A stretch of DNA of 64,000 nucleotides. It comes from Psococerastis gibbosa (Eukaryota > Arthropoda > Insecta > Psocodea > Psocidae). The stretch's first letter is position 1, and each line of letters begins with the position of its first letter. The stretch is from positions 31,981,019 through 32,045,018 of the forward strand of contig OZ020491.1 of NCBI GenBank assembly GCA_963971405.1. The letters run 5' to 3'. A model generated the notes under the pieces. The model worked only from the letters and a program-made list of their open reading frames with translations. It was not told the DNA's origin and searched no databases. Positions 1,040-56,800 of the stretch are shown here, piece after piece. The position numbers were made by a program, and so were the translations under genes.

Positions 1040-1042
1040 TTA

Positions 1043-1805
1043 TAAGATTTTGAAAGAGCTAATTCACCGGAAAGGATTAATTTCTCGCTTCAATACCCCT
1101 ATATTGGATAAATCGCTTCGTGAAAGTATGATTCAGCATAAGTTAAAAGTTGGGCCAACTAACTTTAACACACAGAAAATATCTTAGACTACTTCTGACG
1201 TGCTTCGTGAAATAGATTTCTTTTTATTATTTTTATTAGAGCGTATTTTACAGATTGCAATAGTTCAGGCTAGTACGACAAGTCTATTATTGCGTATAAT
1301 GAAATTTATGTGTGTATATACCGTATATCTTAGGACATTTCTGAAAATAATAATAAAAAGTTGAAAATTAAATAAAAGATAAAGAAACTGATTTTTTTTA
1401 AAAATTAGAATTGGCCATTTTAACTGAGTTTGCCACTTAAGCAAAGGATAGTGAATACCCTTGTTATGCCTAGTCGTATGTTAGAATTAGATGTTCACTG
1501 ATGAAAATTAGTTGATAAGTTTGACATTTTTTACGATGATCCTTGTTTCTCATGGTTCCCGCTTATGGGTAGTATCCATGAGGGATATAATGGGTGCCCA
1601 ACGTCTACTCCTACATCATAATCGTATCAGGACCGTAGTGAGAATTAGTGGGCCTCGGGCCGATGACAAATTTTACCTTCCTCCTCCCCCCACCCCCCTT
1701 TCACCAAATAATTGGGGTAGTGCTTTGAATTTATGACATTTTTCTTCCGTTGCAAAAAAAATGCCTGTAATTCATTTTTTTTAAATGCTACCCACGATCA
1801 AATTT
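1043..1805. other. No gene seen
   Basis: AT-rich intergenic sequence with only short open frames and no recognisable protein motif. A C-rich run lies near 1680-1700. Nothing else is supported. Confidence 0.6.
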
Positions 1806-1868
1806 GTAGTATTACATTTGGCAAAGTCCCAGGCCACTGTGAGGGCCCATAGGACACAACCCACGATC
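1806..1868 (-). mobile_element. 3'-end relic of the LOA/R1-type LINE
   Basis: About 50 bases (GGCAAAGTCCCAGGCCAC and the following GTGAGGGCCCATAGGACACA) match the extreme 3' end of the full-length LINE ending at 37279. A short TAGTATTA stretch stands where the full copy has its (TAG)n tail. This is a very strongly 5'-truncated copy, in minus orientation. Confidence 0.75.
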
Positions 1869-4295: not shown

Positions 4296-4296
4296 T

Positions 4297-5640
4297 AATA
4301 ATAATAATAATAATAAGCGTCTTATATTTACGGGAGAGACTTAAGACTAGAAAGTCTTTTTCTGCCTAACCCACGTCCAAAAACAATACAATTTACAAAA
4401 TACATACGCTTAACGTAAACAATCTTATTCTAACAATGCATAAAAAGAACTTATTCTAAAGTGACGTGACGTAAAAAAAATCACATACAGTAAATATCTA
4501 GACAGTATTCTTATTCTAAACCTATTCTGTTCCTAGTAATTTTTTCAGCAACTGGCTTTTGAACCCACGAATCTTTGGCTGCGATCTAATTTCCTTATCT
4601 AGGGAGTTCCACTGGCGGCAGACATTTACAAAAAAAGAACTACCATATAAAGCTGTGTTATGTCGGGGTATTTGCAATACAAGTCCATTTCTATGGGAAT
4701 TCAATGGCTTTAGGCGGTCATATAGATATGGAGGAGCTGCACTGTTCAAAACCTTATATACTAATAAAATAGTGAGTGGAAAGTTAGAAGAACTTTCACC
4801 TAATTTCAGCCACTGAGCCCTGCGGTAGAATGGGGTTATGTGATCCCGCCGTTTCACATTGTAAATGAACCGCATGCATGAGTTCTGCGCATATTGGAGG
4901 CGCCTAGCATCGACTTCATTACAACTACTGTAAATCAAATCAACATAGTCAAATATTGGAAATATTAATGATTGGATCAGATTTCGCTTTATAGCAACAG
5001 GAAGTAAAAATTTTAGGCGCTGCAGGGCGTGTAAGGAGTAAAAAACCTTTTTACACACTCTTTTGGTATGATCATTCCAAGTAAGACCCTGGTCAACGTA
5101 GAGGCCAAGATTTTTAATGGCTTGCTCTTCGTAGCGGATATTTCTACCACCTATTATAATCGGAGGTGGGGCACTTTTAATAATTCTGGACACAAGCTTT
5201 CTGGAGCCAAGGATTATTGACTGGCACTTATTTGGGTTTATCATAAGAAAATTACTGCCACACCAACCCTCCACATCCGCTGTAGCAACAAAGTTGAACT
5301 GATTCGTATGCGCGGAGAGCTGCAGATCATCTGCATAAAAATGGTATCTACAGTATTTCAGACTCGATGCTAAATCTGACACATAAATTGAAAAGAGGAG
5401 AGGACCAAGGACAGAGCCTTGAGGCACTCCTGAGCGAATAAGGGAGGCTGCCGATAGTTTTTCGCCAATTTTTACAATCTGTACTCTACCACTGAGATAT
5501 GATTTTGCCCATGCAATAGCTTCCGACGAAAAATTCAAGGCTGATAGACGAGCCAGTAGAACATCATGGTTAACGCTGTCAAAGGCTTTACTTTTAAGTT
5601 TTGTTTTAACCATACCAGGACACATATAATGCAAAATGTT
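4297..5640 (-). mobile_element. 5'-truncated LINE with (TTA)n 3' tail
   Basis: The insertion holds the C-terminal half of a reverse transcriptase, about 225 bp of 3' UTR, and a (TAT)n-like tail visible as ATAATAATA at 4297-4316. Truncation falls inside RT domain 3 (the KAFDSVNHD motif, near 5590). Coding direction, truncation side and simple-repeat tail all agree with target-primed reverse transcription. The clade is probably Jockey/CR1 group. Confidence 0.88.
4522..5593 (-). pseudogene. Reverse transcriptase fragment (LINE ORF2 C-terminal part)
   Basis: An uninterrupted frame of about 355 codons begins at KAFDSVNHD and continues through [13 protein letters not shown], the catalytic YADD box (HFYADDLQL), the thumb motif FLGLYVD-like NLGLYVDQGLTW, and the usual C-terminal block ending in WNSLDKEIR..F. 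The N-terminal endonuclease and the first RT motifs are missing, so the product cannot be a working retrotransposase. The reading frame is intact over its whole remaining length, which suggests a fairly recent insertion. The extra codons upstream of KAFDSV are flanking DNA. Confidence 0.88.
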
Positions 5641-5769: not shown

Positions 5770-5895
5770 TTCAGCTACTAAGCAACCCTGTCAGCCTGGT
5801 AGCGTTAGTGCGTCTGTTTCTTAACTTGTGACACCCTAAGGATAGACTCCTTCACCTCGGGTAGAAAGGGAGTTGACTGACAGGGTTCTTGGAAT
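5770..5895 (+). repeat. Dispersed repeat family D, copy 1
   Basis: Contains AAGCAACCCTGTCAGCCTGG, a GGCACCCTAAGG-like segment (here GACACCCTAAGG), and GTTGACTGACAGGG. CCCTGTCAG and CTGACAGGG form short inverted ends about 100 bp apart. Other copies are at 17010 and 57385, with an extended right part at 53335. Confidence 0.7.
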
Positions 5896-6127
5896 TGTAT
5901 GAATCAAATCATGCATTTTTATTTATTTACTGTAGATATTGTTTTCTTGTTAAAGATGTGTGAATAATCGAGCAATGGACCAATAAGAGAAAGCATAGGC
6001 CTAGTAAGTCTTATTGTTGCATAATAGTAAACAAAAATATAATATTCATATATGTTATAATTTCGTGGGTTTATACTTGATAATGGAAATGAAAATCAGG
6101 ATACAGATTGAATTGCACTCTGTATTA

Positions 6128-25541: not shown

Positions 25542-27545
25542 TTAACTGTTGTAGTTGTGGTCAAAAAATTCAGGCACGGAGTAAGGGCGGTTCACACCAA
25601 GAAGCCTAATCACGCCCTTCCTAAATTGGGATGGTGTTAAAGTTGGAAGCCTTAGGAGGCTGGGTAGGTGGTTATACAACCTCGCACCTAAGTGGTGGGG
25701 TGAATTTCCCATGGCGGCTGTATGGTATTGCTCCTGGTGCAAGTCACCCCCACTCCGTGTCCGATGGTGGTGAGTTTCTGCATTAAAAGCATATTTGTGC
25801 AAGTGCCTACGAGTATACGTCAGGGTCTCGAGTATAAACACTGATGCCAGAGGGAGGATATCGAGTTTCTCGAATAAGGGTCGACAAGACACTCGTTGAT
25901 CCCATGTCCCAATAAGAGCTCTAATGGCACGCTTTTGGACTTTGAAAACCCGATCGGACTCAGTGGCGCTTCCCCATGTTGCTATCCCATAGCGCATTCT
26001 GGAGTCAAAACCAGCAAAATAAACTATTTTTAGTACGTCTTGGCTAACGAGAAGCTGCAGAGTGCGCAGGAGGAAGACACAGGAAGATAATTTAGCACAT
26101 AACTTGTGAATGTGTGGTCGCCAGGTCAACATATGATCAATATTAAGGCCCAGAAAAGACACGGTAAGAGCAGCTGGAAGATCTATCCCATCGGAAACCA
26201 AGTTAATTGCTTCCTTGTTGAGGTTGGCTAACTGAAATGTCATAAATTCTGTCTTTTGTGCGTTAAAAACAAGATCATGAGCTTTTAGCCAGCCTGAAAC
26301 TGCATTTAAGGTGGAACAACCACGCGTTTGGGCCGTATGGTTGTCCGGCGCTGGAATCAATATGGATGCATCGTCTGCGTATAGGCTGAGAAATAGGTCC
26401 CAAGGGGAAGGCATGGTGTCACGTTCGAAATTATTGATGTACGCGAGGAAGAGGGTTGGCCCAAGGATACTACCCTGAGGAACGCCTGTAGGTACAGGAC
26501 ACCAGGTGTCGCCGTCCAGCACCTTCTGATCCCGGTCGGTTAGGTAAGAACGAAACCAGTCATTTGCTTCCCCTCTCACTCCCATACTTTCTAGGGTGAG
26601 TAGAAGCTTATCGTGATTTAATGTGTCAAAAGCACGGGAAAGGTCACAGAATATGCCAAGTGCTACATTTTTTTCGTCCAAAATTTTCAGGATCTTGTCA
26701 ATAAGATCAATGCATGCGCCGTTTGTGGACTTGCCTTTGCGAAAACCGTGTTGACACGGGGATAAGAGATTGTTATCTTCGAGAAAAGACATCAGTCTAG
26801 AATTTACTACCTTTTCTAAAATTTTGGATAGTGAAGGGAGAATGCTAATTGGACGGTAGCTACTCAGCTGGTCTCGTTCACCCTTTTTGTAAACAGGCAC
26901 AACTATTGCCCTTTTGAAGCAGTCAGGAAAGACACCACTGGACAGGGAAGCATTAATGCACTCTGCCAGGGGTGGTATGATAGCTGGGCATGCCGTCTTC
27001 GCCAGCCACACAGGAATCTCGTCAGCCCCCGCCGCAGAAGAGCCCCTCAATGACTTTACTACGAGCTCAAGCTCATCTGTAGTGATTGGAGCAAGGAACA
27101 GCGAGTGTGGAACCAATGGGGGGTTCGATGGTTGGTTGGTCGTGCCAATTGGTCCATTTACCCTCAATTGCCTAACCAAGTCTGAAACACTACTCAAAAA
27201 GAAGTTATTCAGTTCGTTTGCAATGGCTGTTGGGTCGGATATTATATTACTCCCTAATCTGATGCGATTTACAGCCCGTGGCAGTGAAGACGGGTTTCTG
27301 AATTTATTTATTATTTTCCAAGTCATTCTCGAGGCATTTTTAGACTTAGAAATTTTACGCTCGATATCCTCCCTTTTCCACAAGTTACATTTGTCCCTTA
27401 CAGTTTTAAGGAGGCTTTTATGCTTCGCTTTAAGCATGGGATCAGGGGATGATCTACTGAGAATTTTCAGGTCCCTCAGCTTATTGAACTCGGTTTTGAT
27501 CTCATCTGGGAGGCGGTCTGAATTTTTTTCCCCCCATTCTGTTAT
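25542..27545 (-). pseudogene. CR1-like LINE ORF2, reverse transcriptase part
   Basis: The frame is open for about 665 codons. The first ATG is at 27437, but the same frame continues upstream through RITEWGEKNSDRLPDEI, so that ATG is not the true start. Motifs in order: SYRPISILPSLSKILEKVV, QHGFRKGKSTNGAC, DLSRAFDTLNHD, TGVPQGSILGPTLF, LYADDAS (catalytic aspartates present), FLGLNIDHMLTWRPH and VSCRPLFEKLDILPL, ending FFDHNYNS. The catalytic region looks intact. The ORF as a whole is disabled by frameshifts where it meets the endonuclease near 27560-27640. Confidence 0.9.
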
Positions 27546-31042: not shown

Positions 31043-33892
31043 TCACATGTTTTCCATCAATTTAGTTTTTAATTTAGCTCGAAATATAGAAATATTTTGC
31101 GATGTTCTTATTGACGGTTCTATTTTATAATATTCTGCCACGCCTTTATGATACACTGAATTTATTCCTAAGTTCGTTCTTCTGTAATTTCTGTGCAGGT
31201 TGTTCATACTTCTTGTTCCATACTTATGTATGTCACTATTTTTCTCCATTTCCGTAGTCATGTACTCCGGGAGGTTTCCTTTCTCAAGTTTATATACAAA
31301 AGACATCGTGTCTAAGTACACACAATCCTGAAACTTGAGCATATTGGCCGCTCGGTGCAAGTCAACGATGTGGGCATCCTCTTGTTCATCCAGTATGGCT
31401 CGCAATGCTTTGTTTATTAATATCTGTATATCATTTATTATTTTCTGTGGGGCATAATTAAACATTGTACTGCAGTATTGAAGGTGAGGTTTAAGAAGAC
31501 CATTAAACATAGCCATTTTCGCGCTTCTTGTTAGACAATGTCTCATTCTCCTCATAATTGACGTTTTTTTATTTACTTTTTCAATGGTCTTTTGAAAATG
31601 TTTCTTAAAATTTAACTTGTCATCCACTATCACTCCAAGATACTTAATGTCCGAAACCTTATCTATTTCTTCATCACCAATTTTAACCTTCAAATTTATT
31701 TGTTGTGTGTTATTACATCTATTTATCAACATGAATTTGGTCTTTCCAATGTTTAAACTTAGTTTGTTCATATTTAGCCATTCATATACAGCTCTCAGGT
31801 CTTCATTTATCCTTCGAAAGCCTTCTTCTAAAGAGTCTGTTTCTATGTATATTAACGTATCATCCGCAAACAACATGATTTTACAATATTTCAGACATTG
31901 TGGTAATTCATTGATAAATAATATGAATAAGAGCGGTCCAAGTTTACTGCCTTGTGGGACTCCAAATTTATTCTCTATATCAGGTGATTCTTTTTTTCCA
32001 ATCTTGGTTTTCTGTTTGCGCCCTTTGAGGTATTCAACAATCCACTTCTGTGCTTCACCACGTATGCCAATATATTCCAGCTTCTGAATTAGTATTCTCC
32101 GGTCAATTGTCTCAAACGCTCTACGGAGATCAAGGAATACTGTAATGACTTTTTTCTTATTTTCCACCGCGATAACCCAGTCATTTATGACACAGCTAAG
32201 AGCAGTTTCAGTCGAATGTTTAGTTCTGAATCCTGATTGATATTTACTAAAAATTGAATTTTCATCTACAAACTTAAGTATTTGTTTCTTTATAACTTCT
32301 TCTAGTATCTTTTCCGTTGCAGGAAGTACATTTATTGGACGAAATTCATCCATAGAGGATGGTTTTTTAACTTTCGGCACCGGTGTTATTCTAGAAATTT
32401 TTAACTGCATTGGTATATCACAATTTTAAATTGATTTCGTAACTATGTGTTCAATTACAGGTCCAATTTTAGTCCACATTTTTTTAATGACGAAGGCATT
32501 AGGTTGCATAGAATCTTTTCCTTTTATAGTCTTAGCTATGTCCCATAGCTCCTCCGAGTTTGGTACCGTAAACGATGTCAACTGCGTCTCTTTCATAAGT
32601 AAAATATTAACATACTCTTTGATGGGGATTTTTTCCCTTATATCTGCTATAGGCCTTCTCTTTATAAAAAATTTGTTGAGTTTTTCAGACGCATTTTCAC
32701 AATCTAATATGCTATTTCCACTGTTTTCTTTTTTTACATTTAGTGCTTCTTTAATTACTTTCCATAACTTCCTTCCATCATGTCCGAATTCTTCAATTTT
32801 TTGTTTAAAATAATCATTCTTTCTACGCCTTAGTATAGCTACAAATTTATTCCTTGACATCTTAAATGTTTCCCATTTTGTATTCAATTCCACTTGGGTT
32901 GCATGGCCATTATTAAATGCCTCTTTCATTGCTCGAAAATTTCTATAATCAGTAATTTTATTATTTCTTGCTTCTACGACTTCTGTAGTGAAATATTTGC
33001 TGTATTGTTTCTTTCTTATGTTGACATCTGGTCCTCTGGACATTTCAATTGCACTTTCCACTATCTCCGACATATTACTGTAACACTTATCTAAATCCTC
33101 CAACATCACTTTATTGTCCTTTAGTTTATCTTTTATCCTATTTTCACATACATCCCAGTCAACCGGCCCTGGGAATGTTATTTTGACATGAGATGTTTGC
33201 ATAACTCCTATGTTCACAAGTATTGAGTCATGATCTGTTACACTTATTTTCAGTACACTGTGTTTTAGGTCTTCATTATTAGAAAATAGCAAGTCGATCA
33301 TTGTTTGTGAAGACTTTGTCACCCTCGTATTACTTGTCACTAGCTGTTTCAAACCCATCATAGCCGCTAAAGACTTTAGTTTCTTCACATTTATGTCAAC
33401 ATCTAGGCAATTCCAATTTAAGTTAAAATCACCAATTAGGATTATATTCCTATGGCTATCTCTCATCTGATCTTGCAGTTTTCCCATTAATATCTCAATT
33501 TGTTCCAGACATGACTTTGGTGATGAAGATGGTGATCTGTATATTAAACTTATTATTTGTTTCTCTTTTCCCAATTTCACATCAACTGTCAGTATCCATA
33601 CAACAAAGTCGATTTTTACTATATCTATTATTTTATATTCAATGTCGTTTTTTATGTATAGTAACACACCCCCAGTGTGTGCAGAATTTGATTGTAAGTT
33701 TATTTCACAGTATCCGTCTAAGTGAATTTCAGAATCATCGACATCATCAGTCAGGTGCGTCTCCACCAGTCCAATAATATTGGGTTTGTATTCTACTATT
33801 TCGTTATATACATCCAACGGGCTTTTATTGTTTAGTCCAGCTACATTCGCATAAAATATTCTACATTCCATGTACTTATTGATATTTAGCAT
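31043..33892 (-). pseudogene. LINE ORF2 (endonuclease + reverse transcriptase) with one premature stop
   Basis: From ATG 33892 (MLNINKYMECRIFYANVAGL) the endonuclease shows LVETHL, GDFNLNWN and VTDHDSILV. After about 488 codons a single TAA (32428-32426) breaks the frame. The same frame then continues directly into RT: LKISRITPVPKVKK, YQSGFRTKHSTETAL, DLRRAFETIDR, FGVPQGSKLGPLLF and LFADDTLIY, to the stop at 31043. The total is about 949 codons. No frameshift was seen, so one nonsense mutation separates this copy from an open ORF2. Confidence 0.9.
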
Positions 33893-36943: not shown

Positions 36944-37349
36944 ACAGGATTTTAACACAGATTGGCCACAATTATTGAATTTGATTCGTACAAAAGCGAT
37001 TGGTGTGGTAGTCCCGAGGAAGGCGAACAAGAACTGTGGCCAATTTGTGTTCGTGAAGACCAACTGTCATATACCAAACAATTAGAGGAGCATTTCTGCT
37101 AATTGTACGGCTATTATTTGTTGGCTCTACGATCTATTCTTCCTGTGGAAATCGAATTTGCGCAAAAACCGTAGTGGGGGTACTTCGATTTGCTCTTGAT
37201 TACGAAGACGAATAATTAGACGCACAGTATATATGTATGTATTTTATATCAGGGTATATTGTGAGGTATAGTATGGTAGTAGTAGTAGTAGATTTTTGGC
37301 AGAGTCCCAGGCCACGGTGAGGGCCCATAGGACACACGCCCCATCTTGC

Positions 37350-40300
37350 TCACTCGTACAACCCGATTGCGGTCGCGAAGCGCGCCGCCTCCTTTGGGCG
37401 AAGCTGTTTCCCTGCCTGTAGTCCTCCCAAAGCAAAACCGACCGAGGAAAGACGTTTTCGCCAGACAGCCGGGCAGTCCATCAGCACGTGCCACCCGGTC
37501 TCAGCGCCAATCTCGCAGAAGCGGCAATCCTGCGTGGGAACCTGTACACCCAAGCGAGCAAGGTGAACCCGGAAGGGGCCGTGTCCCGTCAGCATAGCAG
37601 CAGCAGCGCGTACTGCTCGTCGACTGCTGGAGATGACATCACGTTTTAGCCGCTCATCCGGTCCGAGCAAACATGCCTTGGAGTGATGCATTCCGCTTGC
37701 ACTGGACCACACCGAGCTCCACTTGTCCCTCATGACGCAGTTCCCCTGGTTAAGGATAACCCTCCATGGGACCGGGAGAATAGGCTCCGGACCAACTGGA
37801 AAAACTGCTGATCCTGCACGAGCTAGTTCGTCCGCTTTTTCATTGCCAAGCACTCCACTGTGACCGGGAACCCACACCAGCGTTACGGAATTATGGTGTC
37901 TCAATGACATGTATGCAGCCTTACAATCCCGTACAACAGCAGAGGTAGCACAGCCCCGTTGAAGGGCTTGAATTGCGGATTTGCTATCGGAGCAAACTGC
38001 AATGGCCTTGCCACTAAAGTCTTCACAGCACTTTATCCCTTCATGTATAGCAAATAGCTCAGCTTGGAAGACCGACGCATAGTCACCGAGGGGGAGTGAG
38101 ATAGCAATGGGAGGGTCCTCACAGAAGATACCTGCACCGGCTTTCCCGTTCATTTTCGAACCGTCTGTGTAGAGAACAATGTCGAACCCTGACACTATTT
38201 CTCCGAGATTTTCATCCCACTCTTCGCGGGTGGGAAAACGCGCCTGAGCCCCAGTGAAGTAGGTTTCTCTGACTATACGATCACATGGCATTTTCTGTTC
38301 GTTGGGCATCTTCAGATGGAATGTTTCTGCATGGCCGTTGCGAGGAGCTTTTCGGCAGAGCAACCCGGTAATTCTCAATCGATGAAGCGAGAGGGATGCT
38401 GTATGTTCCAGATACAGATACAGTGGTTGTAAGTCCAATAACACCTCTAGCGCGGATGTAGGAGTTGATCGCATTGCCCCAGATATTGAAATGCAAGCCA
38501 GTCTTTGTATTTTCGCCAGCTTCTGCTTTGATGTCTCCAACAACGCCCGTTTCCACCACACAACGCAACCATAACTTAGCGCCGGTCTCACAACAGCCAC
38601 ATAAAGCCACCTCATGACTTTGGTTGTAAGACCCCAGGTACTTCCAAAACCAACCCGCAGGCTCCAAAGAACCGAGCGCGCCTTTGCTATTGTTGAATCC
38701 AAGTGACTGTTCCATAGAAGCTTTGAATCGAGATGAACTCCTAAGAATTTAACACATTTTGAGGATGGAATTTCTTGATCATTAAGAAACAGAGTTGTGT
38801 TCTTTAGCTTCTTTCTCCTAGTAAAAAGAACCGACTGCGTCTTACTGACATTAATGTTAAGGCCTTTGGGGCGACACCACTGCGAGATTATATTGAGCGC
38901 GCGTTGCATTAGTTCGGTAATGACAGACAAATCCATTCCTTTCACAGCTACAACAAGGTCATCTGCATATGCTTGGACATACAGTCCGCTACACGACAGT
39001 ATGTACAACAGCTCGTCCACGACAATGTCCCATACGATAGGCGAGGTCACTGCACCCTGTCCGCAGCCTCTAGCTACCCAGGCTCGAATCGTGCTCCCCC
39101 CTCGAGTGCAGACAACCAATCGTTGACGGAGCATACATAATAACCACTTCCTGATTTGTGGGTCAATCTTTCTTTTCTTTAATAATTCATCAATAGCAGT
39201 CAGAATTAAATTTGAAAAAGCTCCATCCACGTCCAGAAATACACAGAGCGCCATTTCTTTACTGTCAAGACTCCCTTCTAGATACGAGACCAGGCTATGT
39301 AGGGCACTTTCTGTTGACCGCCCTGGCCTGAACCCGTGCTGTCCGTCGTGTAGTTCGTTGGTACCGGTGAGTGTAAGCCTGATTTCTCGTTCGATAAGCC
39401 TTTCCAGTGTCTTTAGCAAGAATGAACTGAGGCTGATGGGTCTGAACGCCGACGGCTTGGTGTAGTCTGATCTACCATGCTTGGGAATGAAGATCACACG
39501 TACTTCCCGCCACTTGAGGGGGATGTAGCTAAATCTTACACAACCCTTATAAATCTCTGTAAGGAATTTAGTAAGCTCACGAGTTCCTTTTTGTAGGAGT
39601 ACCGGAAAGATGCCATCTGTGCCTGGCGATTTAAACGGGGAGAACATTCCCAAAGCATACGTCACTCTTTCTTCCGTTAACCAAGTGGGGTCGACATAAG
39701 AAATGGCTGCTGTAGAGACTTCGTCAGGAGGAAAATTACCATCAGAGTCAAACGTACATTCCGGGAAATGTGTCTCTACTAAGAGCTTCAAGGCTTCGGC
39801 ATCACATGTGGTAAATCCATTCGTTCTGGTACAGAAGAGAGGTCCATTGACAATGCGTTTATCTTTAGATAAGGTTTTCTGCAATCTTGTTGCTTCTGGA
39901 AGATTTGCTATCTCTTCACAGTAAGAACGCCAGCATCTCCGTTTGGAAGCCCGTATTTCTCGCTTATATTGCCGTAGCACAACCTTGTAATCAGCAGTAG
40001 CTACTACGTTGTTATCACCTCGTCTTACTCTTGTACGCAATTTGTTGGTTAGCTTTCGGAGCTTTTCAATTCTCCTGGTCCACCAAGGCGTTTTGTGAGT
40101 AGTTTTTGTCGAAGACAAGGGACAACTATCATTAAAGGAGCTCCTCAGGGCTTCCATCACGCGGTTGCAGAGATCTTCAACTTCATGCGTAGTCTCGGGT
40201 GCAGGAGGGCATTCCCCAAGGCGATCTTTTAGAAGCAATTCATACTCAGCCCAGTTTGTTTTCTTGGGGTTGCGAAAAGCTGATGGGGTAGCTTGTGGTA

Positions 40301-40973
40301 TGTTTAATAGTAGAACAAATGCTACGTAGCAGTGGTCGGATGCCGATTCTTCGTCCAGGACTTGCCAGTCTCTAAGACTCCTCTCTATTCTGCCACATCC
40401 AAATGTGAAATCAAGGACTTCTTCCCTTATAGCATTTATAAAAGTCGGTTTCGAACCCCTGTTCATAACCCTAAGGCCGAATTCCATAGTAAACTCCAAA
40501 AGCTCGTCCCCTCTTCCATTGGTGTTGGTGCTGCCCCATGAGTCCACGTGAGCATTGCCATCACAGCCCAACAAAATGGCTAGATTGTTACTTTTGCAAA
40601 ATTCCACAAGGTGCACAACTTCCAGGGGTGGGCATGGTCTATCGTGAGCAAAGTAGGAAGAAGCCACTACAGCCTCCTCATAGCCAATTTTAACTTTCAC
40701 CGCGACTAAGTCCTTCGTTAGAAACTGCGGCAATAATTCACAATGCACTCCTGTAGCTAAAATGCAGGCTCGGGGTTTTTCTTCTGGCGCAGCAGCAAAG
40801 ATATTCCCATTAAACCCGCCGAGACCTTGTAGTCTTCCCTCATTCCCCAACCAGGGCTCTTGAACCAGGGTAATGTTGATGAGTACCCGACTAATAGTTT
40901 TGATTAAAATAGAAGATGCTGCTATGGCATGTTGCAGATTTATTTGCAGAAATTTAATGTCTGTCATTTTCAT
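37350..40973 (-). CDS. LINE ORF2 polyprotein (endonuclease, reverse transcriptase, RNase H), 1207 aa
   Basis: One open frame. Residues 1-225 form the endonuclease: QINLQHA, the catalytic Glu in VQEPWL (about 39), GCDGNAH (136-142), and SDH (212-214). RT spans about 490-740: FRPISLSSFLLKTLE, HGFRPGRSTESAL, DVDGAFSN, GCGQGAVTSP and YADD (669-672). RNase H follows with YTDGSK, an AELFAI glutamate, CSDSKSAI and WVPGHSGVLGNEKADELA. All catalytic acidic residues and the histidine appear present. A C-terminal C-x2-C-x7-H-x4-C knuckle (CRFCEIGAETGWHVLMDC) ends the protein. It nicks target DNA and copies the LINE RNA. It overlaps ORF1 by 20 bases, implying reinitiation or frameshifting. Confidence 0.95.
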   Translation of the reverse strand: MKMTDIKFLQINLQHAIAASSILIKTISRVLINITLVQEPWLGNEGRLQGLGGFNGNIFAAAPEEKPRACILATGVHCELLPQFLTKDLVAVKVKIGYEEAVVASSYFAHDRPCPPLEVVHLVEFCKSNNLAILLGCDGNAHVDSWGSTNTNGRGDELLEFTMEFGLRVMNRGSKPTFINAIREEVLDFTFGCGRIERSLRDWQVLDEESASDHCYVAFVLLLNIPQATPSAFRNPKKTNWAEYELLLKDRLGECPPAPETTHEVEDLCNRVMEALRSSFNDSCPLSSTKTTHKTPWWTRRIEKLRKLTNKLRTRVRRGDNNVVATADYKVVLRQYKREIRASKRRCWRSYCEEIANLPEATRLQKTLSKDKRIVNGPLFCTRTNGFTTCDAEALKLLVETHFPECTFDSDGNFPPDEVSTAAISYVDPTWLTEERVTYALGMFSPFKSPGTDGIFPVLLQKGTRELTKFLTEIYKGCVRFSYIPLKWREVRVIFIPKHGRSDYTKPSAFRPISLSSFLLKTLERLIEREIRLTLTGTNELHDGQHGFRPGRSTESALHSLVSYLEGSLDSKEMALCVFLDVDGAFSNLILTAIDELLKKRKIDPQIRKWLLCMLRQRLVVCTRGGSTIRAWVARGCGQGAVTSPIVWDIVVDELLYILSCSGLYVQAYADDLVVAVKGMDLSVITELMQRALNIISQWCRPKGLNINVSKTQSVLFTRRKKLKNTTLFLNDQEIPSSKCVKFLGVHLDSKLLWNSHLDSTIAKARSVLWSLRVGFGSTWGLTTKVMRWLYVAVVRPALSYGCVVWWKRALLETSKQKLAKIQRLACISISGAMRSTPTSALEVLLDLQPLYLYLEHTASLSLHRLRITGLLCRKAPRNGHAETFHLKMPNEQKMPCDRIVRETYFTGAQARFPTREEWDENLGEIVSGFDIVLYTDGSKMNGKAGAGIFCEDPPIAISLPLGDYASVFQAELFAIHEGIKCCEDFSGKAIAVCSDSKSAIQALQRGCATSAVVRDCKAAYMSLRHHNSVTLVWVPGHSGVLGNEKADELARAGSAVFPVGPEPILPVPWRVILNQGNCVMRDKWSSVWSSASGMHHSKACLLGPDERLKRDVISSSRRAVRAAAAMLTGHGPFRVHLARLGVQVPTQDCRFCEIGAETGWHVLMDCPAVWRKRLSSVGFALGGLQAGKQLRPKEAARFATAIGLYE

Positions 40974-42909
40974 TTATTTTAATATCTGAGTCTTCATTTA
41001 CATTTCCACTGGGAGCATGTTTTTGGTTACGGCAGGCATACACTGCTTTACGAAAGTCCGGACACGCCATGGAGTCCATCCTATGCCCATCGCAGTTGCA
41101 AGCGTAACAATGAAGATTCCCTTGACAATCCTTTGCTCTGTGCCCTTCTGCTCCGCAACGTCTACAAAGTTCTTTACTTTCAGTGCCTTCACACCGCCAT
41201 GATGAATGACCATAACGCTTGCACTTCCGACAAAAATCCGGATTGAATTTCTCGCGGACTTTTGCTCTTGTCCAACCCACCGTAATAAAACCCCTGTCTG
41301 CCGCCAACAATGCTGCCTCTATTGGAAGTGTAACAGAGCTAAAGTACGTAAGATTGCGAGCTTGCCGAATTCCTGCTACCTTAATTTCCTTTGCATCAAT
41401 AGAAAGTGATGAGCTAAAGGCGTCTTGTAATTCGGTCTCCTTAGTAAATTCATCTAAGTTTGATACAAAAAGTACGCCTTCCGAGTTTTTTAAAATAACT
41501 TCTGAGTTTATTTTCTCTTTAATTTTCACTGCGAAATTGTTCCTGCCCCCAGATTTCTTTTCTTTGAAATAAACGTTCAGATTACCATCCTGTTTTTTAA
41601 CAACTCTTTTGATTTCCACACCGACATCGTCAGGGTTAATCTCTGCTCTCAGTTTTCCCACTGCCTCAGCAAAGGTGAGATTATCAGACATTTTGACGGT
41701 TACTGCGTCATTATTACGTCGAGCTCTTCCGCGGACAACCTTCTTAGCTTCACCGTCGGCATGTGGCCCCTTCCTCTGTATACAGATTCTTACCGAAATT
41801 TGGCGGCTGTGCAGAATACTTTCTGCAAGTTTACGAAGCTGGCCATGCTCAATTACTTCATGCGGCGCTGCCATCGTAATTGACTGAACCCCCATTTCTT
41901 GACACTTACTGCCCACTTTTTCAATTAACTCAACAATATGTTCGAAATTTGGAGTTTCACCCACAAGCCCCAGAATTAATTCTTGTGCAGTCTCAACTTC
42001 AGCTTCTGAGAGTTCGTCTTCATATAAGACGTGGTCACTACTCTTTATCAAGACGATTTTTCCCGTTTCCAACTTCGTTGACATAACCCTGTTAATAGCA
42101 GGCAATTGCCTGCTTAATGAGTTCATTAAAAAATTGTCTTCCATTTTATCCACCAGTAAGAAACGCATACCTTCACTTCTGATTATACTTTTCTTTTGAA
42201 GTTTGGTGCACCGGAAAGCAGGTTGAGGCCAGTTCATTAAGATTAACTTCGAAAAATCCGCTGAGTTTTTAGCCTCCAACATGTTTCGGTGGATTTCTTC
42301 GATATTTTGCAGGTCCTTAGCATCACGCTTAGGGTATGTTTGTGTTTCAGAGTCAACGCCCCTAGAAGTCTTAAAAACAGGGTTAAGGCTCTGAACGAGA
42401 AGAATTATTTTGTCTAACAGAGCTAAAGAATCCTCAGTAGTAAGCGACTGCCGGACACATTTGAGATCTGAAACTATTTCCCATACCTTCTGGTGCTCGG
42501 GGGTAGTAGTGAAAGGTATATCCTTACTAACGACCCTAATCGTCTGGTAACGAGGGGTTGAAAACACTTCCGGGCTGGCATCCTGTTCTTCGCATCGCGG
42601 TCTTTTGGAAACAGGAGGAGTCCCATTGGCATTGGTGGAATCTAACAAGTTGCTTTTTGGAGGCGTCCGCCGTAATACCGTCCTCTTAGGAAACATGTTT
42701 GTACGTTCTTGTTGCCTCAGGGCTTCATCTTTATCAAGTAATAGAGAATTCTGTTCATTCTCACCCATTTCGTGGAACCACGCTTTTAGACCTGGACCCT
42801 CCGAATTTGACCTCTCCCGCGTGGGTGAAGTCAATAATTTTGGTTTCCTTCTAGAAGCATCAGACACACCGCTACCCGGGGCTTCATTTCCATCCATAGC
42901 CTCTCCCAA
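40954..42909 (-). CDS. LINE ORF1 (gag-like) protein, 651 aa
   Basis: Open frame from MGEAMDGNEAPGSG to a stop 20 bases inside ORF2. The N-terminal third is polar and probably disordered (KPKLLTSPTRERSNSEG). The centre is unassigned. The C-terminus has three consecutive zinc knuckles: CRKCKRYGHSSWRC, CRRCGAEGHRAKDC and CYACNCDGHRMDSMAC. That arrangement is usual for ORF1 proteins of R1, LOA and I-type LINEs, which coat the element RNA. No stops or frameshifts. Confidence 0.93.
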   Translation of the reverse strand: MGEAMDGNEAPGSGVSDASRRKPKLLTSPTRERSNSEGPGLKAWFHEMGENEQNSLLLDKDEALRQQERTNMFPKRTVLRRTPPKSNLLDSTNANGTPPVSKRPRCEEQDASPEVFSTPRYQTIRVVSKDIPFTTTPEHQKVWEIVSDLKCVRQSLTTEDSLALLDKIILLVQSLNPVFKTSRGVDSETQTYPKRDAKDLQNIEEIHRNMLEAKNSADFSKLILMNWPQPAFRCTKLQKKSIIRSEGMRFLLVDKMEDNFLMNSLSRQLPAINRVMSTKLETGKIVLIKSSDHVLYEDELSEAEVETAQELILGLVGETPNFEHIVELIEKVGSKCQEMGVQSITMAAPHEVIEHGQLRKLAESILHSRQISVRICIQRKGPHADGEAKKVVRGRARRNNDAVTVKMSDNLTFAEAVGKLRAEINPDDVGVEIKRVVKKQDGNLNVYFKEKKSGGRNNFAVKIKEKINSEVILKNSEGVLFVSNLDEFTKETELQDAFSSSLSIDAKEIKVAGIRQARNLTYFSSVTLPIEAALLAADRGFITVGWTRAKVREKFNPDFCRKCKRYGHSSWRCEGTESKELCRRCGAEGHRAKDCQGNLHCYACNCDGHRMDSMACPDFRKAVYACRNQKHAPSGNVNEDSDIKINENDRH

Positions 42910-43224
42910 CGTTGCGCCACTGGCTTATACTTGAGTATGGCCAGATATGTAATCACAACACAGGTTTCAACTTGTTTTGAAGCGTACACTGGATTTAAAA
43001 ACGTATTTTTAGTCAGTAAAACTGCTTTATATTGGATAAACCGATTTAAAAAAAAGGATTTTATCACACTTCTGTCCTACTTAACCAATTATAACCGCAC
43101 TGAAACAGTTTAATTAGGCTTAAAGTCGCAAAAACAGGCCCGTGACATTTACCGCATGTATCACCGCTCGCTGCCATAGGCGTACTCTATAGTATGGTAC
43201 AATACACGCTGATGATTTTTCCAG

Positions 43225-43283
43225 AATCCACGGAAATTACTGTCAAACGCCAAGAGGTAACATCAGATGACGAAATATCGTAA
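43225..43283 (+). other. Relic of the zinc-finger leader exon upstream of gene 4
   Basis: After an acceptor-like TTTTTCCAG, a phase-1 reading gives ESTEITVKRQEVTSDDEIS and then TAA. It resembles the pseudogene leader at 58280 (ETTEEVVIKCEIASDDE) and gene 1 (ELIVKREIISDD). It ends in a stop and is not in frame with the gene 4 ATG, so it may be 5' UTR or a decayed exon. The LINE insertion site is 25 bases upstream of its acceptor. Confidence 0.5.
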
Positions 43284-43339
43284 TCAAAAGATTCAGTAGA
43301 AAAGAAAGACTGCGATTTCCAGGCTGCTTATCTATAACG

Positions 43340-44800
43340 ATGGAGTACCAATACGCGCTTAATCATGAGCCGAGTGTTGTTACTGTAACGGAAGAATGTT
43401 ACTCCGAACAGTTAGATGTGTTTGAGGACCAACAGAGCCAAGTTACGGTGAAGGCAGAGTGTGATAATGAAGAGACAGCTGTGGCTGCAGAACTGAACGT
43501 TATTACTATAAAGAGAGAATATTACGATGGGGAAATAGAAGAAGTTGAGGAGCAACAAAGCGATCTTACAGCGAAGAAAGAATGGTATGATGAACAATTA
43601 GATTTAGTTGGCAAAAACCCGAGCCAAGTTCCTTCGAAGAGGGAATACAATGATGAACAATTAGGTTTCGGTGATGAACCGAGCGTTGTTCCTGTAAAAA
43701 GAGAGTACTGCGATGAGCAATTACATGTGGCAGAAGAGCAGCAGAGCATTTTTACTGTGAAAAAGGAGTGTGGCTATGGGCAATCAGGCATTGCTGACGA
43801 GGCGACAATACAAATAATCGATGCGGAATACGAAAACGAGCAACTAGATTATTTGAAGCAAAAGAGAAAACCTCGTAAGAGAAAAATTATGTCATATAAC
43901 CAGGTCGGGGAATGCAGTGGTGGGCTAAGAGAAGAAGAATCGCCAATTAAAATTGAGAATGCACAGTACGAAAACGAACAATTAGATGATGTAAAAAAGA
44001 AGAGGAAATCTGGGACGGGGATAATGTCACGTAAGCCTAACCAGAGCGAGGAGTATAACAACAGCGGAGACACAGACGTAACTGAAGAACCGACAGTTCA
44101 AATCTTGAATGCTACGTGGGAAAACGACCAACTAGACGATGTACAGAAGACGAAACCTCGTAAGAGAAATGTGGTGCCCAGTAACTGGAGTTCGAGGGTA
44201 GCCAAAACATTTGAATGCAAAATCTGTCACAAGCGTTTCGCGTATAATTGTGACTTAACTAGGCATACAAGAATCCACACTGGGGAGAAACCTTACCTGT
44301 GTGATATTTGTTCGAAAGGTTTCTCCCAACGTGGCAGCCTGATCGAACATCGAAGGAAGCATACGGGGGAAACGCCTTTCCAATGTTTGATTTGTTCCAA
44401 ATCTTTCAGATGCCAAAAAAATTTACGAATTCATGGCCGAACCCATGAGGGAGTGAAACCTTACAAGTGTGAGATATGTTTGCAAGGTTTCACGGACAAT
44501 CGTAACTTGACTGTTCATGTGCGGGTTCATACGGGGGAAAAGCCTTACGAGTGCGAGGTGTGTTCCGAAAGTTTCGTCTCTCGGAGAAATTTGCGGATTC
44601 ATGCTAGACAGCATACGGGGGAGATTCCTCACCAGTGTCAAGTGTGTTTACGAAGTTTCACGCAGAGATGCAGTCTGACTGTACATATGAGGATCCACAC
44701 TGGGGAGAAACCTTTCCAGTGCCCCGAGTGCTTGCAAAGTTTTATTTCAGCTACACATTTACGGTTTCATGCTAAAAAACATGCTAAAGTACTAGCTTAG
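43340..44800 (+). CDS. C2H2 zinc-finger gene 4 (repetitive acidic leader plus 7 fingers)
   Basis: 486 codons from ATG 43340. Residues 1-285 form an acidic leader of two repeat types: a unit like VKREYxDEQLxxxxEQ (about six copies) and a unit like A-YENEQLDDVKKKRK (three copies, with basic KPRKRK stretches that could act as nuclear signals). Consensus psi-K-x-E sites include V37-K38-A-E, I57-K58-R-E, V119-K120-R-E, V140-K141-K-E and I203-K204-I-E. Seven C2H2 fingers follow (FECKICHKRF to FQCPECLQSF), all C-x2-C/H-x3-H. Likely a nuclear regulator; the lysine motifs suggest SUMO attachment, which is inference. The start is the first ATG in frame. A phase-1 acceptor at 43322 could give an alternative spliced 5' end. 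Confidence 0.9.
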   Translation: MEYQYALNHEPSVVTVTEECYSEQLDVFEDQQSQVTVKAECDNEETAVAAELNVITIKREYYDGEIEEVEEQQSDLTAKKEWYDEQLDLVGKNPSQVPSKREYNDEQLGFGDEPSVVPVKREYCDEQLHVAEEQQSIFTVKKECGYGQSGIADEATIQIIDAEYENEQLDYLKQKRKPRKRKIMSYNQVGECSGGLREEESPIKIENAQYENEQLDDVKKKRKSGTGIMSRKPNQSEEYNNSGDTDVTEEPTVQILNATWENDQLDDVQKTKPRKRNVVPSNWSSRVAKTFECKICHKRFAYNCDLTRHTRIHTGEKPYLCDICSKGFSQRGSLIEHRRKHTGETPFQCLICSKSFRCQKNLRIHGRTHEGVKPYKCEICLQGFTDNRNLTVHVRVHTGEKPYECEVCSESFVSRRNLRIHARQHTGEIPHQCQVCLRSFTQRCSLTVHMRIHTGEKPFQCPECLQSFISATHLRFHAKKHAKVLA

Positions 44801-51060: not shown

Positions 51061-51507
51061 TACGATTTGTCAAAGTGAATGTTGAAGATAACTAGCATTA
51101 AATAATAATAATTTTATATACTTTGTTTAAATCAAACTGTTTTAAAGCATTATGGGTGCTATTATGCAATTAAAGTTTAAATTTAAAAAGGTAAATAATA
51201 GAAAACACTCCATCAGTGGCATTATCATGTCGCAAACTTGAAATATATAAAATGGCGTAATAATCATAAACAATAAACATTGAAATTCGAAAATAATTAA
51301 TAACGCTGCACTAGTCTACTACAATCAAAATAGCAACAGGCAACAGAAAGATTTTCATTGCTTTGTACGAAAAGAATAATGAATGCCATTAATGTAGACG
51401 TGTCTCGTAAGTGCAATACTAAGTTTTACTCAAGTTTTAGTAACATATTAATAGCTAGTAGTAGTAGTGTTCGTCGGTTTAATAACAACTTAGGCCTCAT
51501 ATTTGGT
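51061..51507. other. No gene seen; shared upstream motif
   Basis: ATGTCGCAAACTTGAAA and TAAAATGGCG at 51228-51264 repeat sequence near 35582 and resemble 15472. No coding potential. Confidence 0.45.
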
Positions 51508-51515
51508 CCCATAGA

Positions 51516-53320
51516 TAAGCCTGCCATACCTCCCGGTTTACCCGGGAGGCTCCTGGTTTTCAGCCCAATCTCCCGGCTCCCGGGTGAATGTAGTCGGGAG
51601 GCCGTATTCTCCTGGTTTTGGAAAATGTCCCGGAAAATCTCCCTATTTTTGAAAGACATGAAATTGAGTGATGTAATTTTACGTTTAAGTATAAATTTTA
51701 ATCGAATTGTGTGCAATTGCATTCATCGCCTGTAAATTCTAATCTCCGCAAAACCCCACTATTTCAGGCCGGTTTTTCACAATTTTTCCACCGGGGGAGA
51801 CCCCCGGGCCCCCTTGTTTCCAACTACCTACTTAATTCCAGAGGCGGACGCAGCGACCGGCACTGCGGGCAATACCCCCCCCCCCCCCCCATCCCTTTGG
51901 AAGGCAGTTATATTCTTTGCCTTTAAAATCCAAGTGTTAACTGAACTCAAAATGCGTAAAACCCCACTATTATGGCCCTATTTTTCACAAAACTGCTCCC
52001 GTGCCCCCCTCGTGCACAATTTTATTATTTCCCTCTAAAATATAAACCTTATTGCTCTGAAAATGACTAAAACCCAAATATTTCAGCCCTATTTTTCAAA
52101 TATCATCTCCCGGTGGAGACCCCCGGGGCCCCCCATCATATCCTCCGAACCCTCTGGCTCATGCGCAAAGGACACTAAGGTCGTTAATGTAAAAGCTGCG
52201 TTCGTCCAAGAGAACGGCTTTCCCCATTTTATACACTTTTATGAAAATGGGTGGAGGGTGCCAAATTATACACCGCCCCTTCGAAAACCTATCGTTACGC
52301 TACTGACAAGTGCCTCCCCCTTTCATGAGGTCTGGGACCGCCTCTGCTTAATTCATCGCATGTAAAACCAGAACGTTACTGCTATCAAAATGAGCAAAAC
52401 CCCACTACATGAAGCCAATTTTTCAAAAAAATTTAACCGGGGGAGACCCCCGGGCCCCCCTATGTCCAATTGTATTTTTCGCCTTTAAAATCTAAATGTT
52501 ACTGCTATCAGTATTCGTAAAGTCCCATTATTTTAAGCCAAGTTTTACAAATTTTTCTACCGGGGGAGACCCCCTAGCCCCCTTGTTTGCCACTACTAAC
52601 TTAGTATATTTATCGCCAGTAAAATCTGAATATTACTGCTAACTAAATGCGTAAAACCACATTAATTTAAGCCAATTTTTCAAAAACAATTTCTACCGGG
52701 GGAGACCCCCGGGCCCCCCTTTTGTGCAATTGTCTTTTTCGCCTGTAAAATCTAATGAATGTAACTGCTATCAATCTGCGCAAAACCCCACTACTTGAGG
52801 CCTGTTTATCAAAAATTTTCAACAGGGGGAGACCCCCGGCCCCCCCTTGTTTCCAACTACCTACTTCATTCATCGCATGTAAAATCTGAACGCTACTCCT
52901 GTCAAAATGCGTTGGAACCACATTATTTTTAGCCAACTTTGCAACAAAAATCCCCGGGCCCCCCTTGTGAGCAGTTGTATTTTCCGCCTGTCAAACTCCG
53001 CTATTAAAATCTGAACGTTACTACTATCGAAGTGCCCAAAACCTAGTTAATTTAAGCCAATTTTTTCAAAAAATTGCTACCTGGGGAGACCCCCGGCCCC
53101 CGGGCCCCCCTTGTGTTCAATTTTATTCGTCGCGTGTCAAATCTAAATGTCTAAAAGCTGCGTACGTCCTTGAGAACGGGTTTCCCCGTGGAGACCCTCT
53201 ATATTTTTGATGCTAACTTATTGCACTTGCCCTAGATGTCGAAAAAAATAGGTATAGTGTATACTGAATAAGCCAAACTGAAACCTCCCGGTTTTTTGAA
53301 AAATAAATCTGGCAGGCTTA
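51516..53320. mobile_element. 1.8-kb non-autonomous DNA transposon with internal tandem array
   Basis: Terminal inverted repeats TAAGCCTGCCA at both ends are directly flanked by the identical 8-bp duplication CCCATAGA (51508-51515 and 53321-53328). Subterminal ACCTCCCGGTTT on the left is mirrored as AAACCGGGAGGT on the right. The interior is an array of roughly 125-135-bp units, each with a GGGGGAGACCCCCGGGCCCC block. No transposase ORF. The 8-bp duplication points to the hAT, P or Merlin groups; the ends do not match any of them exactly. Confidence 0.92.
51790..53120. repeat. Tandem array of about 130-bp units inside the transposon
   Basis: The block GGGGAGACCCCCGG recurs near 51799, 52112, 52440, 52564, 52699, 52828 and 53083, with a partial one near 52945. 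Between blocks the units read like GCCTGTAAAATCTAAATG, ACTGCTATCAAAATGCG and AAAACCCCACTATTT. Unit spacing in the right half is 124-135 bases. Copies are diverged by substitutions and small indels. Short GC palindromes in each unit could form hairpins. Confidence 0.85.
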
Positions 53321-53334
53321 CCCATAGAGCGACT

Positions 53335-53570
53335 CCGACTTGACTGTCCTATGCCAGCCCATAGGACAGTGGACCTCCTGATTATAGTAGATTCCGAACC
53401 ACTTGGGAAACGCAGTGAAGTCACACGATTAGTTTGGAGGTGACCAGGACAAGTCCTACCATGTTTCCCTACCGGCACTGTGCACACGACCAAGTTATCT
53501 GCAGCTTTGAACCTGCTCTGGTCCGCTGGATTCAACTTGGTAATTAGTTGGTATGCCGGCAAGATATTAA
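53335..53570 (+). repeat. Dispersed repeat family D, right part
   Basis: CTCCTGATTATAGTAGATTC, CGAACCACTTGGG, GTCACACGATTAG and GAGGTGACCAGGAC match 57510-57690 in the same order. Non-coding. Confidence 0.78.
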
Positions 53571-53879: not shown

Positions 53880-56800
53880 TCAGCCGTCCGCTCCTACAAA
53901 AAGTTGGAGCAAACCAAATGCCTGCATCAAACTGAAACTAAGGCCATTTAGACTGTATCATCAAAACGTACATAGTATTCGAAACAAGCGACATTTATTA
54001 GCTATGTTCCTCGATGAGGAAAACATTGACGTTGCATGTATAAGTGAGCACCACCTAGTGGTAGGTGAAAATATTATACTTCCTGGGTATACGTTAGGTA
54101 GCATTTTCTGCAGACGGGATCGCTCCATTGGTTACGGTGGAGTTTGCTTATACTTAAAGTCTGATCAAAAATATAAGGATAGATGTGATATTAATTTACT
54201 AGGCCAGGAATGTGATGCAGAAATAACCGCGATTGATTTGCTTACCCTCAATACCACAGTCATCTGTGTGTATCGGGTGCCAAATGGGGACTGGGTAAAA
54301 TTTTTGACAGTCTTTAGTCAGTCATTGGAACTGGCGTGTGGGTCTACTTCGAACCAAATCTTTGTTTCTGGTGATTTCAATATTAACACTCTCGTTCAAT
54401 CACGGGAAACGGAAATTTTTTTCGACCTCATAATTCATAAATAGCTTTGGTGTTAGCCCCACAATCTTTGAACCCACCAGAATTACCCCCACCACAGCTT
54501 CTTGTCTTGACAACATACTGACAAATATTTCTCCCGTTGATTTTTCTGATACCGTCTGCTGCAGCGGGGTCTCTGACCACCAAGGACAACTTCTCTCCAC
54601 TCAACTTGGCCACCCCTCTACAAAACCTTATATTCCACTAAAATTTCATAGGTCATATAGTAAAAATAATATAAACAAGTATTTATCTATACTTGAAGCA
54701 TCTCAGATGGCATGGTACCATGATGATCACTCAAATATAATTGACCCAAATTTGAGTTTTCAAAACCTTATAGGGAGGATTCCAAGTGTTGCCGGCCTAT
54801 GTTTTCCCCTTGTACGTACTCGGTTGAGTGCAAAACATTTAAGGCAACCAATACACGTTCGAGAAAAATAGCCGTGGCAAATAAGAACCCCGCCCTGCTA
54901 ACCTTGCATGCCAAAATGGCCAGAGAGCTTAATGCTGAATGCAATGCGCTAAAGAGGGCCAACATTGAAAATTGCATAGCATTAGCTGAAAACAAGTGAA
55001 AGGTCTCGTGGGCAATTATCAATGAAATCAAGGGTAGGTCTCCCTCAAACAGAGACATAAAGGAAATTGTTCATCAGGGCCAAACCATAAAAGAAAAGAT
55101 GCATATAGCCGAAACCTTAAATGATTATTTCATTAGTGTAATATCTGACCTCATTTCGGAAATACCGACAGCACAAGCCACAGCCATGGAGTATGTCAGT
55201 CTCTCAACTAAGGTGGATGACACCTTCTCCTTTAGACCCGTGACTGAACATGATGTGGAGGGCATTATTCTATCTCTTAAAACCACCACATCTTCAGGGT
55301 GGGATGGTCTGCCGTCAAAGGTCCTGAAATCAGCTTACAAGCCCTTGTTACCGAAGCTGGTAGAAATGATTAACCCATCACTCAGTACAGGTATTTTTCC
55401 AGATTGTCTGAAGCAAGCAATTGTTGTACCTGTTTATAAGAAAGGCCCAATAACCGACCCATCTACAATAGTTACAGGCCAATTAGCCTATTGCCTACAT
55501 TTTCAAAAATAATTGAAAATATTGTTAATATTCTATTGCTTGATTTTCTAAGGGACCATGAAGTACTTTCTATGAGGCAATTTGGATTCCATCAGGGTAG
55601 GTCTACCTCAGACGCCATTGTCAAATTGTACTAAGACATCATTAGGCACCTAGAATCGGGTGAGCTGTCCCCTGGCGTCTTCTGCGATCTCAGCAGAGCT
55701 TTCGATACCCTAGATCATGAGGCACTCCTAGGGAAACTGAATAGAATCACTATGGGATGCGTGGAGTCGCTGGAGACTGGTTCCGTAGCTACCTATTCGG
55801 TAGGAAGCAAAGGGTTGATGTTGGCAAAAAATCGGGATGGAGGGATGTTGAAACAGGAGTTCCTCAGGGAAGTGTCCTTGGCCCTACATTATTTATCATT
55901 TATATAAACGATTACGTCAAATGCATGAGCATGGCCCGTCTGTAGGCCTTTTTGCTGACGACAACTATTTCGTGTTAAGTGCCACATCAGCAACAGAAAT
56001 AGAGGCTGCCTGTAATGGGGAGCTTAGGGTGGCAAGTGACTGGCTAGCTGCCAACAAACTGATTCATAATATGGGTAAAACCAATTTTGTTGTATTCAAA
56101 ACACTCCATAAGCCCATGGATATAGATCCGCAGTTGCAAATGGGTGGTAGTGTGGTCCGGCGAGGGGTCAAAGTAGGACTGCTGGGAGCTACTATGGATC
56201 CGGCTCTCAACTGGAAACCTCATGTTAACAACCTTTGCGCAAAGCTCACCTCATGCGCTTTCCTCTTGTGGAGCCTATCCTTCCTGGTCAGTACTGATGT
56301 TCTGAAATTGGTCTATTATGGCCTCTTGGAGTCGCACCTAAGATATGGAGTAATATGCTGGGGCAACTTGGTTGACGCCGCCAGGGCATTTCTCATACAA
56401 AAAAGGGCCATTAGGACCATGGCTGGTGTTAGGGACCAGACTGTTTCCTGCAGACCGCTGTTTCGGAGCTCTGGAATCCTGACCCTCCCGGCTCTTTACA
56501 TATTGGAGGTAGCGAAATTTGCCAGGTCAAATCCCAACCTCATTAGATCACGGGACATACATGCCCACAACACTAGAAATCGTAATCGTATAAACAGAGA
56601 ATCATATAGGCTTACCTTAACCCTTAAATCTCCCGCAGTCATGGGAACCAGACTTTTTAACGTTTTACCACCCAGAATAAGGGATATTGAGGACAATAAG
56701 TTGTTCTACAACGTGCTTAAAAAAGAATTGTTAAACATTTGTCCGTATTCTGTCAGTGATGAGTTCTTTGAAGTCTATAGGAATTAGAAATAGCATTCCC

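Follow-up and report, generated by a model that had tools for sequence, protein, structure and literature searches.

LINEs of the R1 clade insert into rDNA or telomeric repeats, and non-autonomous derivatives of R2 retain a 5' ribozyme module. The 3' UTR of SART1 is described as essential, and tails and 3' stem-loops shared between SINEs and LINEs are well known, in eel UnaL2 and others (both in the accessible part of PMC3747384). An RNase H is listed for Ingi, I, Nimb, Loa, R1, Tad1, Loner, and Outcast, and is also named for plant L1, Proto1, and Dualen (PMC4640811, in excerpt).

Here we describe a LINE in a 64,000-nucleotide stretch of the Psococerastis gibbosa genome (the window), together with a class of very short insertions that comprise only the hairpin and tail of its 3' end, which we call minis. 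Our main reading, to which we assign a probability of about 0.8, is that the window holds a recent full-length copy of a young LINE family that inserts by TA-primed reverse transcription, and that the minis most probably stem from 3' RNA fragments trimmed to the hairpin. Among the titles and opening lines of abstracts listed from the literature searched, which included few subscription journals, we found no paper on hairpin-only LINE copies.

The window LINE and its relatives

The 12-mer TATAGTATGGTA occurs exactly twice on the plus strand of the window (37267-37278 and 43188-43199) and nowhere on the other strand, and between its two copies lies a 5,909-bp non-LTR retrotransposon on the minus strand (37279-43187; Table 1). 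The perfect 12-bp target duplication described in the earlier note is therefore real. In the sense of the element it reads TACCATACTATA, of which the first three bases (TAC) are also compatible with the (CTA)n tail, so that 9 bp of the 12 belong to the duplication without ambiguity. That the element is complete, as had also been claimed, is confirmed by 11 places in the genome, the window included, that match it from element base 1 or 2 in one piece. The first base of the 5' UTR is common to the window copy and nine other full-length copies, and one further copy (L004) begins one base later. ORF1 and the 1,207-codon ORF2 are indeed free of stops and frameshifts, and in the translation AYADD can be seen by eye, as can residues in the RNase H that match the D-E-D-H-D pattern quoted in the same excerpt of PMC4640811. 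The z-scores of the predicted hairpin are modest (-2.3 for the 71-nt 3' UTR, -1.7 for the 57-nt unit, and -1.1 each for the 3' ends of the sister family and the relic described below).

Table 1. Positions in the window of the parts of the LINE, its target duplications, and the relic near the window start.
Feature	Position	Strand	Basis
Full-length LINE, 5,909 bp between duplications	37279..43187	-	duplications and genome copies
Target-site duplication, element 5' side	43188..43199	.	exact 12-mer
Target-site duplication, element 3' side	37267..37278	.	3 bp adjoining the tail also fit the tail
5' UTR, 290 bp, begins GAGTACGCC	42898..43187	-	comparison of full-length copies
ORF1, 647 codons, zinc knuckle (Pfam zf-CCHC)	40954..42897	-	open frame and Pfam
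ORF2, 1,207 codons: endonuclease, reverse transcriptase, RNase H	37350..40973	-	open frame and Pfam
ORF1/ORF2 overlap, 20 nt; ORF2 ATG within the final codons of ORF1	40954..40973	-	
3' UTR including tail, 71 bp	37279..37349	-	
57-nt unit (element 5853-5909), found alone elsewhere as minis	37279..37335	-	
Predicted 3' hairpin, element 5853-5887	37301..37335	-	folding z-scores
(CTA)n tail	37279..37291	-	
Mini-insertion, older (GACTTTGCCAAA) 3'-end type	1806..1858	-	sequence match and shuffles
Direct repeat GATCGTGGGT (sense), 5' side of mini	1859..1868	.	by eye
Direct repeat GATCGTGGGT (sense), 3' side of mini, 6 bp past tail	1790..1799	.	by eye

Pfam matches over the cut-off were obtained for ORF1 (zf-CCHC) and for three domains of ORF2: Exo_endo_phos_2 (PF14529), RVT_1 (PF00078), and RNase_H (PF00075). 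The endonuclease is of the APE type (aa 125-217 by Pfam, aa 7-221 by the match to TRAS1), and the reverse transcriptase and RNase H span aa 496-748 and aa 932-1055, respectively. The joint presence of endonuclease and reverse transcriptase (PF14529 and PF00078), together with duplications of variable length (9-14 bp in 31 copies) and 5' truncations from base 64 to 4917 among 37 LINE loci, identifies a LINE. The RNase H that follows the reverse transcriptase (PF00075) is a mark of the I group and does not separate its clades. Among solved structures, of which few are available as references, the endonuclease matches TRAS1 best (6e-18), followed by R1Bm (2e-4), as is characteristic of the R1 clade; none of its seven matches up to an E value of 10 is an L1 endonuclease. 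Strict target specificity, which is common but not universal in the R1 clade, was not found, the insertions being dispersed over nine contigs with only TA shared. The L1 clade can be set aside, given the (CTA)n tail instead of poly(A) and the lack of an L1 endonuclease match, even though the best match of the reverse transcriptase among solved ones is L1 ORF2p. The earlier designation as LOA/R1-type is supported, with one limit: the RNase H suits a member of the I group and the endonuclease is R1-like, but these features do not separate LOA from R1. Comparison of the domains thus supports placing the window LINE as an APE-type member of the I group with an R1-like endonuclease. Viral contigs yielded no relatives of ORF2.

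The assembly that contains the window (409 Mb, 68 contigs) has six matches to PF02949, a receptor family of insects, over its cut-off, against none in 14 control genomes, which points to an insect host. A DNA search of this assembly with the window LINE gave at least 43 matches, covered by 37 loci. Aligning these copies, a check that the earlier note had proposed, showed the 11 full-length places among them; the ten outside the window are 99.3-99.9% identical to the window copy and differ from it by 6-15 substitutions. The window copy has a single private variant among 13 aligned copies, and since at least ten further full-length copies are near-identical to it, the proposal that it is recent holds. 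Two copies (L005 and L006) do not differ by any substitution, though they lie on different contigs and have different duplications. Both ORFs are complete in eight of the 13 longest copies. Twelve copies (L013 was left out as more divergent) carry 57 distinct substitutions, with 14 nonsynonymous and 15 synonymous ones in ORF2 (expected: 24.1, 9.5, and 1.3 for stop) and 16 nonsynonymous and seven synonymous ones in ORF1 (expected: 13.3, 4.9, and 0.7 for stop), a pattern that mildly suggests purifying selection, and this for ORF2 alone. Taken alone, the window LINE is an ordinary recent element in good preservation.

Internal stretches are missing from six copies (L017, L020, L022, L025, L033, and L037); by eye, microhomology of 2-3 nt is visible at some of the junctions. 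Splicing was rejected as their origin, because the six junctions have no consistent GT...AG. At the 5' junction of L007, a partial repeat of the element's own first bases precedes the LINE 5' end.

A sister LINE family with 48% ORF2 identity was found at ten places. It retains the (CTA)n tail and CTATGGGCCC, and all six 3' ends read, two of which have a common flank, end in (CTA)n. Six sister copies with open ORF2 lie on one strand within 93 kb (G000:C14:12305675-12398932), and the common sequence in two of the 3' flanks read suggests that this cluster arose by tandem duplication. The genome also contains a SINE, whose head pattern occurs at 4,859 sites and which starts near GGCCGCCATACCAAGTTGAATCC in all seven copies read. 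In at least two SINE copies the 3' end is that of the LINE family in the window, and other SINEs carry the sister tail. Neither Rfam nor ARAGORN supported a 5S- or tRNA-derived SINE head; an Rfam match to mir-722 in L186 was discarded, being far under the gathering score and upstream of the head.

The window holds further mobile elements. A SINE copy at about 51455-53560 on the minus strand is interrupted by a stretch of about 1.8 kb (51516-53320), which has the inverted ends TAAGCCTGCC/GGCAGGCTTA and shows the 8-bp duplication TCTATGGG; by its anatomy this stretch is a putative nested TIR DNA transposon. Four further stretches, three on the minus strand (4930-5511, 25908-26912, and 31460-32416) and one on the plus strand (55843-56502), share 24-26% identity with the reverse transcriptase of ORF2 and are probably remains of other LINEs. 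A 509-codon open frame (43271-44800, plus strand), in which C2H2 zinc-finger repeats are visible by eye, begins 72 bp from the LINE's 5' duplication, which would place the LINE insertion just upstream of, or inside, a zinc-finger gene.

TA target sites and the (CTA)n tail

The longest direct repeat could be obtained for 33 of the 37 copies, and four have no duplication. The repeats of L011 and L013 are distant from the junction and were judged to be chance; without these two copies, 31 duplications remain. Untrimmed, 27 of them start with TA; once leading C or AC bases that are compatible with the tail are trimmed, which changes the start in L004, L025, and L027, the count is 30 of 31. The TA background is 8.2% of flank dinucleotides. 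A T directly precedes the TA in 18 of the 31.

For six LINE copies (L005, L007, L021, L025, L026, and L030), paralogs of the joined flanks without an insertion lie in other loci of the sampled set, the best matches being 78 to 98.6% identical; those for L020 and L023 are short and weak. No empty site of the window copy was found: when its flanks are joined, every match longer than 60 bases falls on one of the two flanks in the window itself. The TA start combined with the (CTA)n tail is microhomology between tail and target. This match, along with the same tail in the sister family, whose ORF2 is only 48% identical, makes a clear case of an endonuclease preference that fits the tail.

These features are compatible with the following mechanism. 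The ORF2 protein would bind the hairpin of the 71-nt 3' UTR and nick the bottom strand after TA (about 5'-TA^A); the released 3' end (...TA-3') would pair with UA of the (CUA)n tail and prime reverse transcription, and the resulting target duplications would mostly measure 11-14 bp. For the minis, 3' RNA fragments trimmed up to the bound hairpin would serve as templates, and the enzyme would run off their 5' end.

Minis as a discrete class of insertions

We define a mini as an insertion that starts from element position 5845 on and has no LINE body upstream. The first 100 exact 3'-core sites listed, made up of 20 LINE copies and seven minis from earlier sets and 73 newly fetched sites, comprise 56 minis, 43 LINE-bodied ends, and one SINE. 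The newly fetched sites account for 49 of these minis and for the SINE (L114); the other 23 have a LINE body upstream or start before 5845. One mini pair (L125 and L126) is a duplicated locus, and dropping it once leaves 48 distinct minis. All of them start at 5849-5862, and 47 do so within the 11 nt of 5849-5859. A single start (L093, at 5840) falls in the 107 nt just upstream. Minis thus form a discrete class: they measure about 57 bp, begin near the hairpin's 5' base, and exist beside full-length and scattered truncated copies.

Two 3'-end types can be distinguished among the minis. Those of the modern type (GACTCTGCC) start at 5850-5853 in 31 of 32 cases. They carry A5 in 27, A7 in three, and A8 in three cases (n = 33, duplicate included), and the LINE loci have A5 in 25, A7 in five, A6 in one, and another form in six (n = 37). 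The older type is mostly GACTTTGCC, and LINE-bodied copies of it exist too. Of 35 older-type minis, 28 retain GTG[TC]CC at the hairpin base.

Duplications of at least 7 bp flank 42 of the 49 minis; seven have none, nor has the SINE. Without the duplicate locus and two ambiguous cases, 39 mini duplications could be used, of which 27 start with TA untrimmed and 34 after trimming, while five lack TA. Uninterrupted paralogous sites span the join in L064, L066, and L077 (with little on the left side in L077), and L076 has a weaker one. The paralogous-site matches of L060 were discounted because they fall on the 3' ends of other copies.

Genome-wide, the 3' core at up to three mismatches occurs at 2,719 sites. 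We rejected the idea that all of these are minis; they are a mixture of minis, LINE ends, and SINEs that carry this tail. LINE body just upstream of the core was found at 139 sites (up to three mismatches), and exact GTGTCC-type 3' ends, minis and LINE-bodied together, number 115. The sister family differs in composition: 40 of its core sites were read, and they comprise 35 SINEs, four LINE-bodied ends, and at most one mini (L132), at which no duplication was seen by eye.

A short match at 1806-1868 of the window had been described as a tail-only relic showing that the family has moved more than once. It is real: it is 89% identical to the LINE 3' end over 55 bp, and its 32-nt core had no chance match in 100 shuffles of the window. 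Rather than an ordinary truncation, the relic is more aptly called a mini, bounded by a 10-bp direct repeat of its own; this repeat begins with bases other than TA, and its 3' copy is 6 bp away from the tail. As a same-family 3' end of the older type within the discrete mini class, it is not in itself simple proof of repeated movement, which is instead demonstrated by the dozens of near-identical copies. Forty relic-like sites were listed. In the 14 that were fetched with 400 bp upstream, as in the relic itself, the LINE match starts at the hairpin base (5849-5853), and direct repeats are readable by eye at several of the 14. Five more sites also start at the hairpin base.

Origin of the minis and comparison with known systems

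We give somewhat less than even odds to the statement that retrocopies of about 57 nt, consisting of hairpin and tail, are roughly as frequent among the sampled 3' ends as all other insertions together, and that a 3' RNA fragment serves as their template, its 5' end being fixed by the footprint of the reverse transcriptase on the hairpin. Were this true, minis would be genomic footprints of the minimal RNA needed for target-primed reverse transcription.

The rival that survives best, though we consider it unlikely, also draws on the hairpin: the reverse transcriptase would copy tail and hairpin from intact LINE RNA and halt at the hairpin's 5' edge, where part of the same protein would still be clamped. 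It accounts for minis that share LINE variants and for a start anchored to the hairpin and not to the stop codon. That anchoring is apparent in the older type: in seven of 11 LINE-bodied ends the stop codon is 2 nt nearer the hairpin (a biased share, as these bodies were mostly chosen as near matches to L083), and the GTG[TC]CC start is kept despite the shorter spacing. Two observations hint, weakly, at a template end instead. In L037, LINE base 4544 is joined to the mini start with three extra nucleotides between, a junction that might be a template jump. The base before GTG[TC]CC in older-type minis is T in 17 of 28 and C in four of 28, yet C in seven of 11 LINE-bodied ends, and T in place of C fits untemplated addition at a template end. 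Trimmed RNA templates seem a likelier source of the minis than a halted reverse transcriptase.

An independent, separately transcribed tiny SINE with a borrowed LINE tail is improbable. Its nearly fixed 5' end, its retrotransposed form, and the presence of a true SINE with LINE tails in the same genome would suit this origin, but an internal promoter would hardly fit into some 43 bp, two minis (L062 and L078) gave no tRNA, and one (L062) gave no Rfam family. Moreover, the A5/A7 variants of the LINE recur in minis of the modern type, and the SINE reads CTGTCC or AGTCC where the minis have GTGTCC. In the minis read, no head of the kind that a SINE derives from an RNA with a pol III promoter was seen upstream of the hairpin.

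We regard as very improbable that the minis record the front of a ribosome that sits on the stop codon of ORF2 and blocks reverse transcription about 14 nt downstream, like an in vivo toeprint; modern-type minis do mostly start 13-15 nt past the stop codon, but the stop-to-hairpin spacing of the older type, with its unchanged hairpin start, disfavours this. Chance 5' truncation of an ordinary LINE is scarcely credible, for although LINEs are usually 5' truncated (PMC3747384, in the part available), the 73 newly fetched sites gave 48 distinct starts within 5849-5862 against one in the 107 nt upstream.

If upheld, the minis mark within a few bases a very small RNA unit inserted by a LINE, and they span at least two 3'-end types. 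They hint at how the copying enzyme recognises its own RNA and offer a test of what fixes the 5' end when LINE copies are very short, be it RNA trimming, bound protein, or a reverse transcriptase stop.

Among known systems, the R1-clade LINEs (R1, TRAS1, and SART1) share with the window family an APE-type endonuclease, for which TRAS1 and then R1Bm are the nearest solved structures, whereas the window family is dispersed and prefers only TA. SART1 also differs in its poly(A) tail (PMC3747384, in excerpt), where the window family has (CTA)n. The LOA clade resembles it in the RNase H after the reverse transcriptase and in a CCHC-bearing ORF1; the section of PMC4640811 at hand lists the RNase H for both Loa and R1, and for the I clade. 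The Drosophila I element has a similarly short triplet tail, made of TAA repeats (per the same part of PMC3747384), whereas the triplet here is CTA. SINE/LINE pairs of the stringent type that share a 3' tail, such as eel UnaL2, likewise combine a 3' hairpin with a repeated tail, and the SINE described here carries the sister tail or, in two copies, that of the window family; the minis differ in having no head at all. Finally, the non-autonomous R2 derivatives are also reduced elements mobilised by a LINE, but they arise by internal deletion of R2 (both according to an excerpt of PMC3414825), whereas minis consist of the 3' end only.
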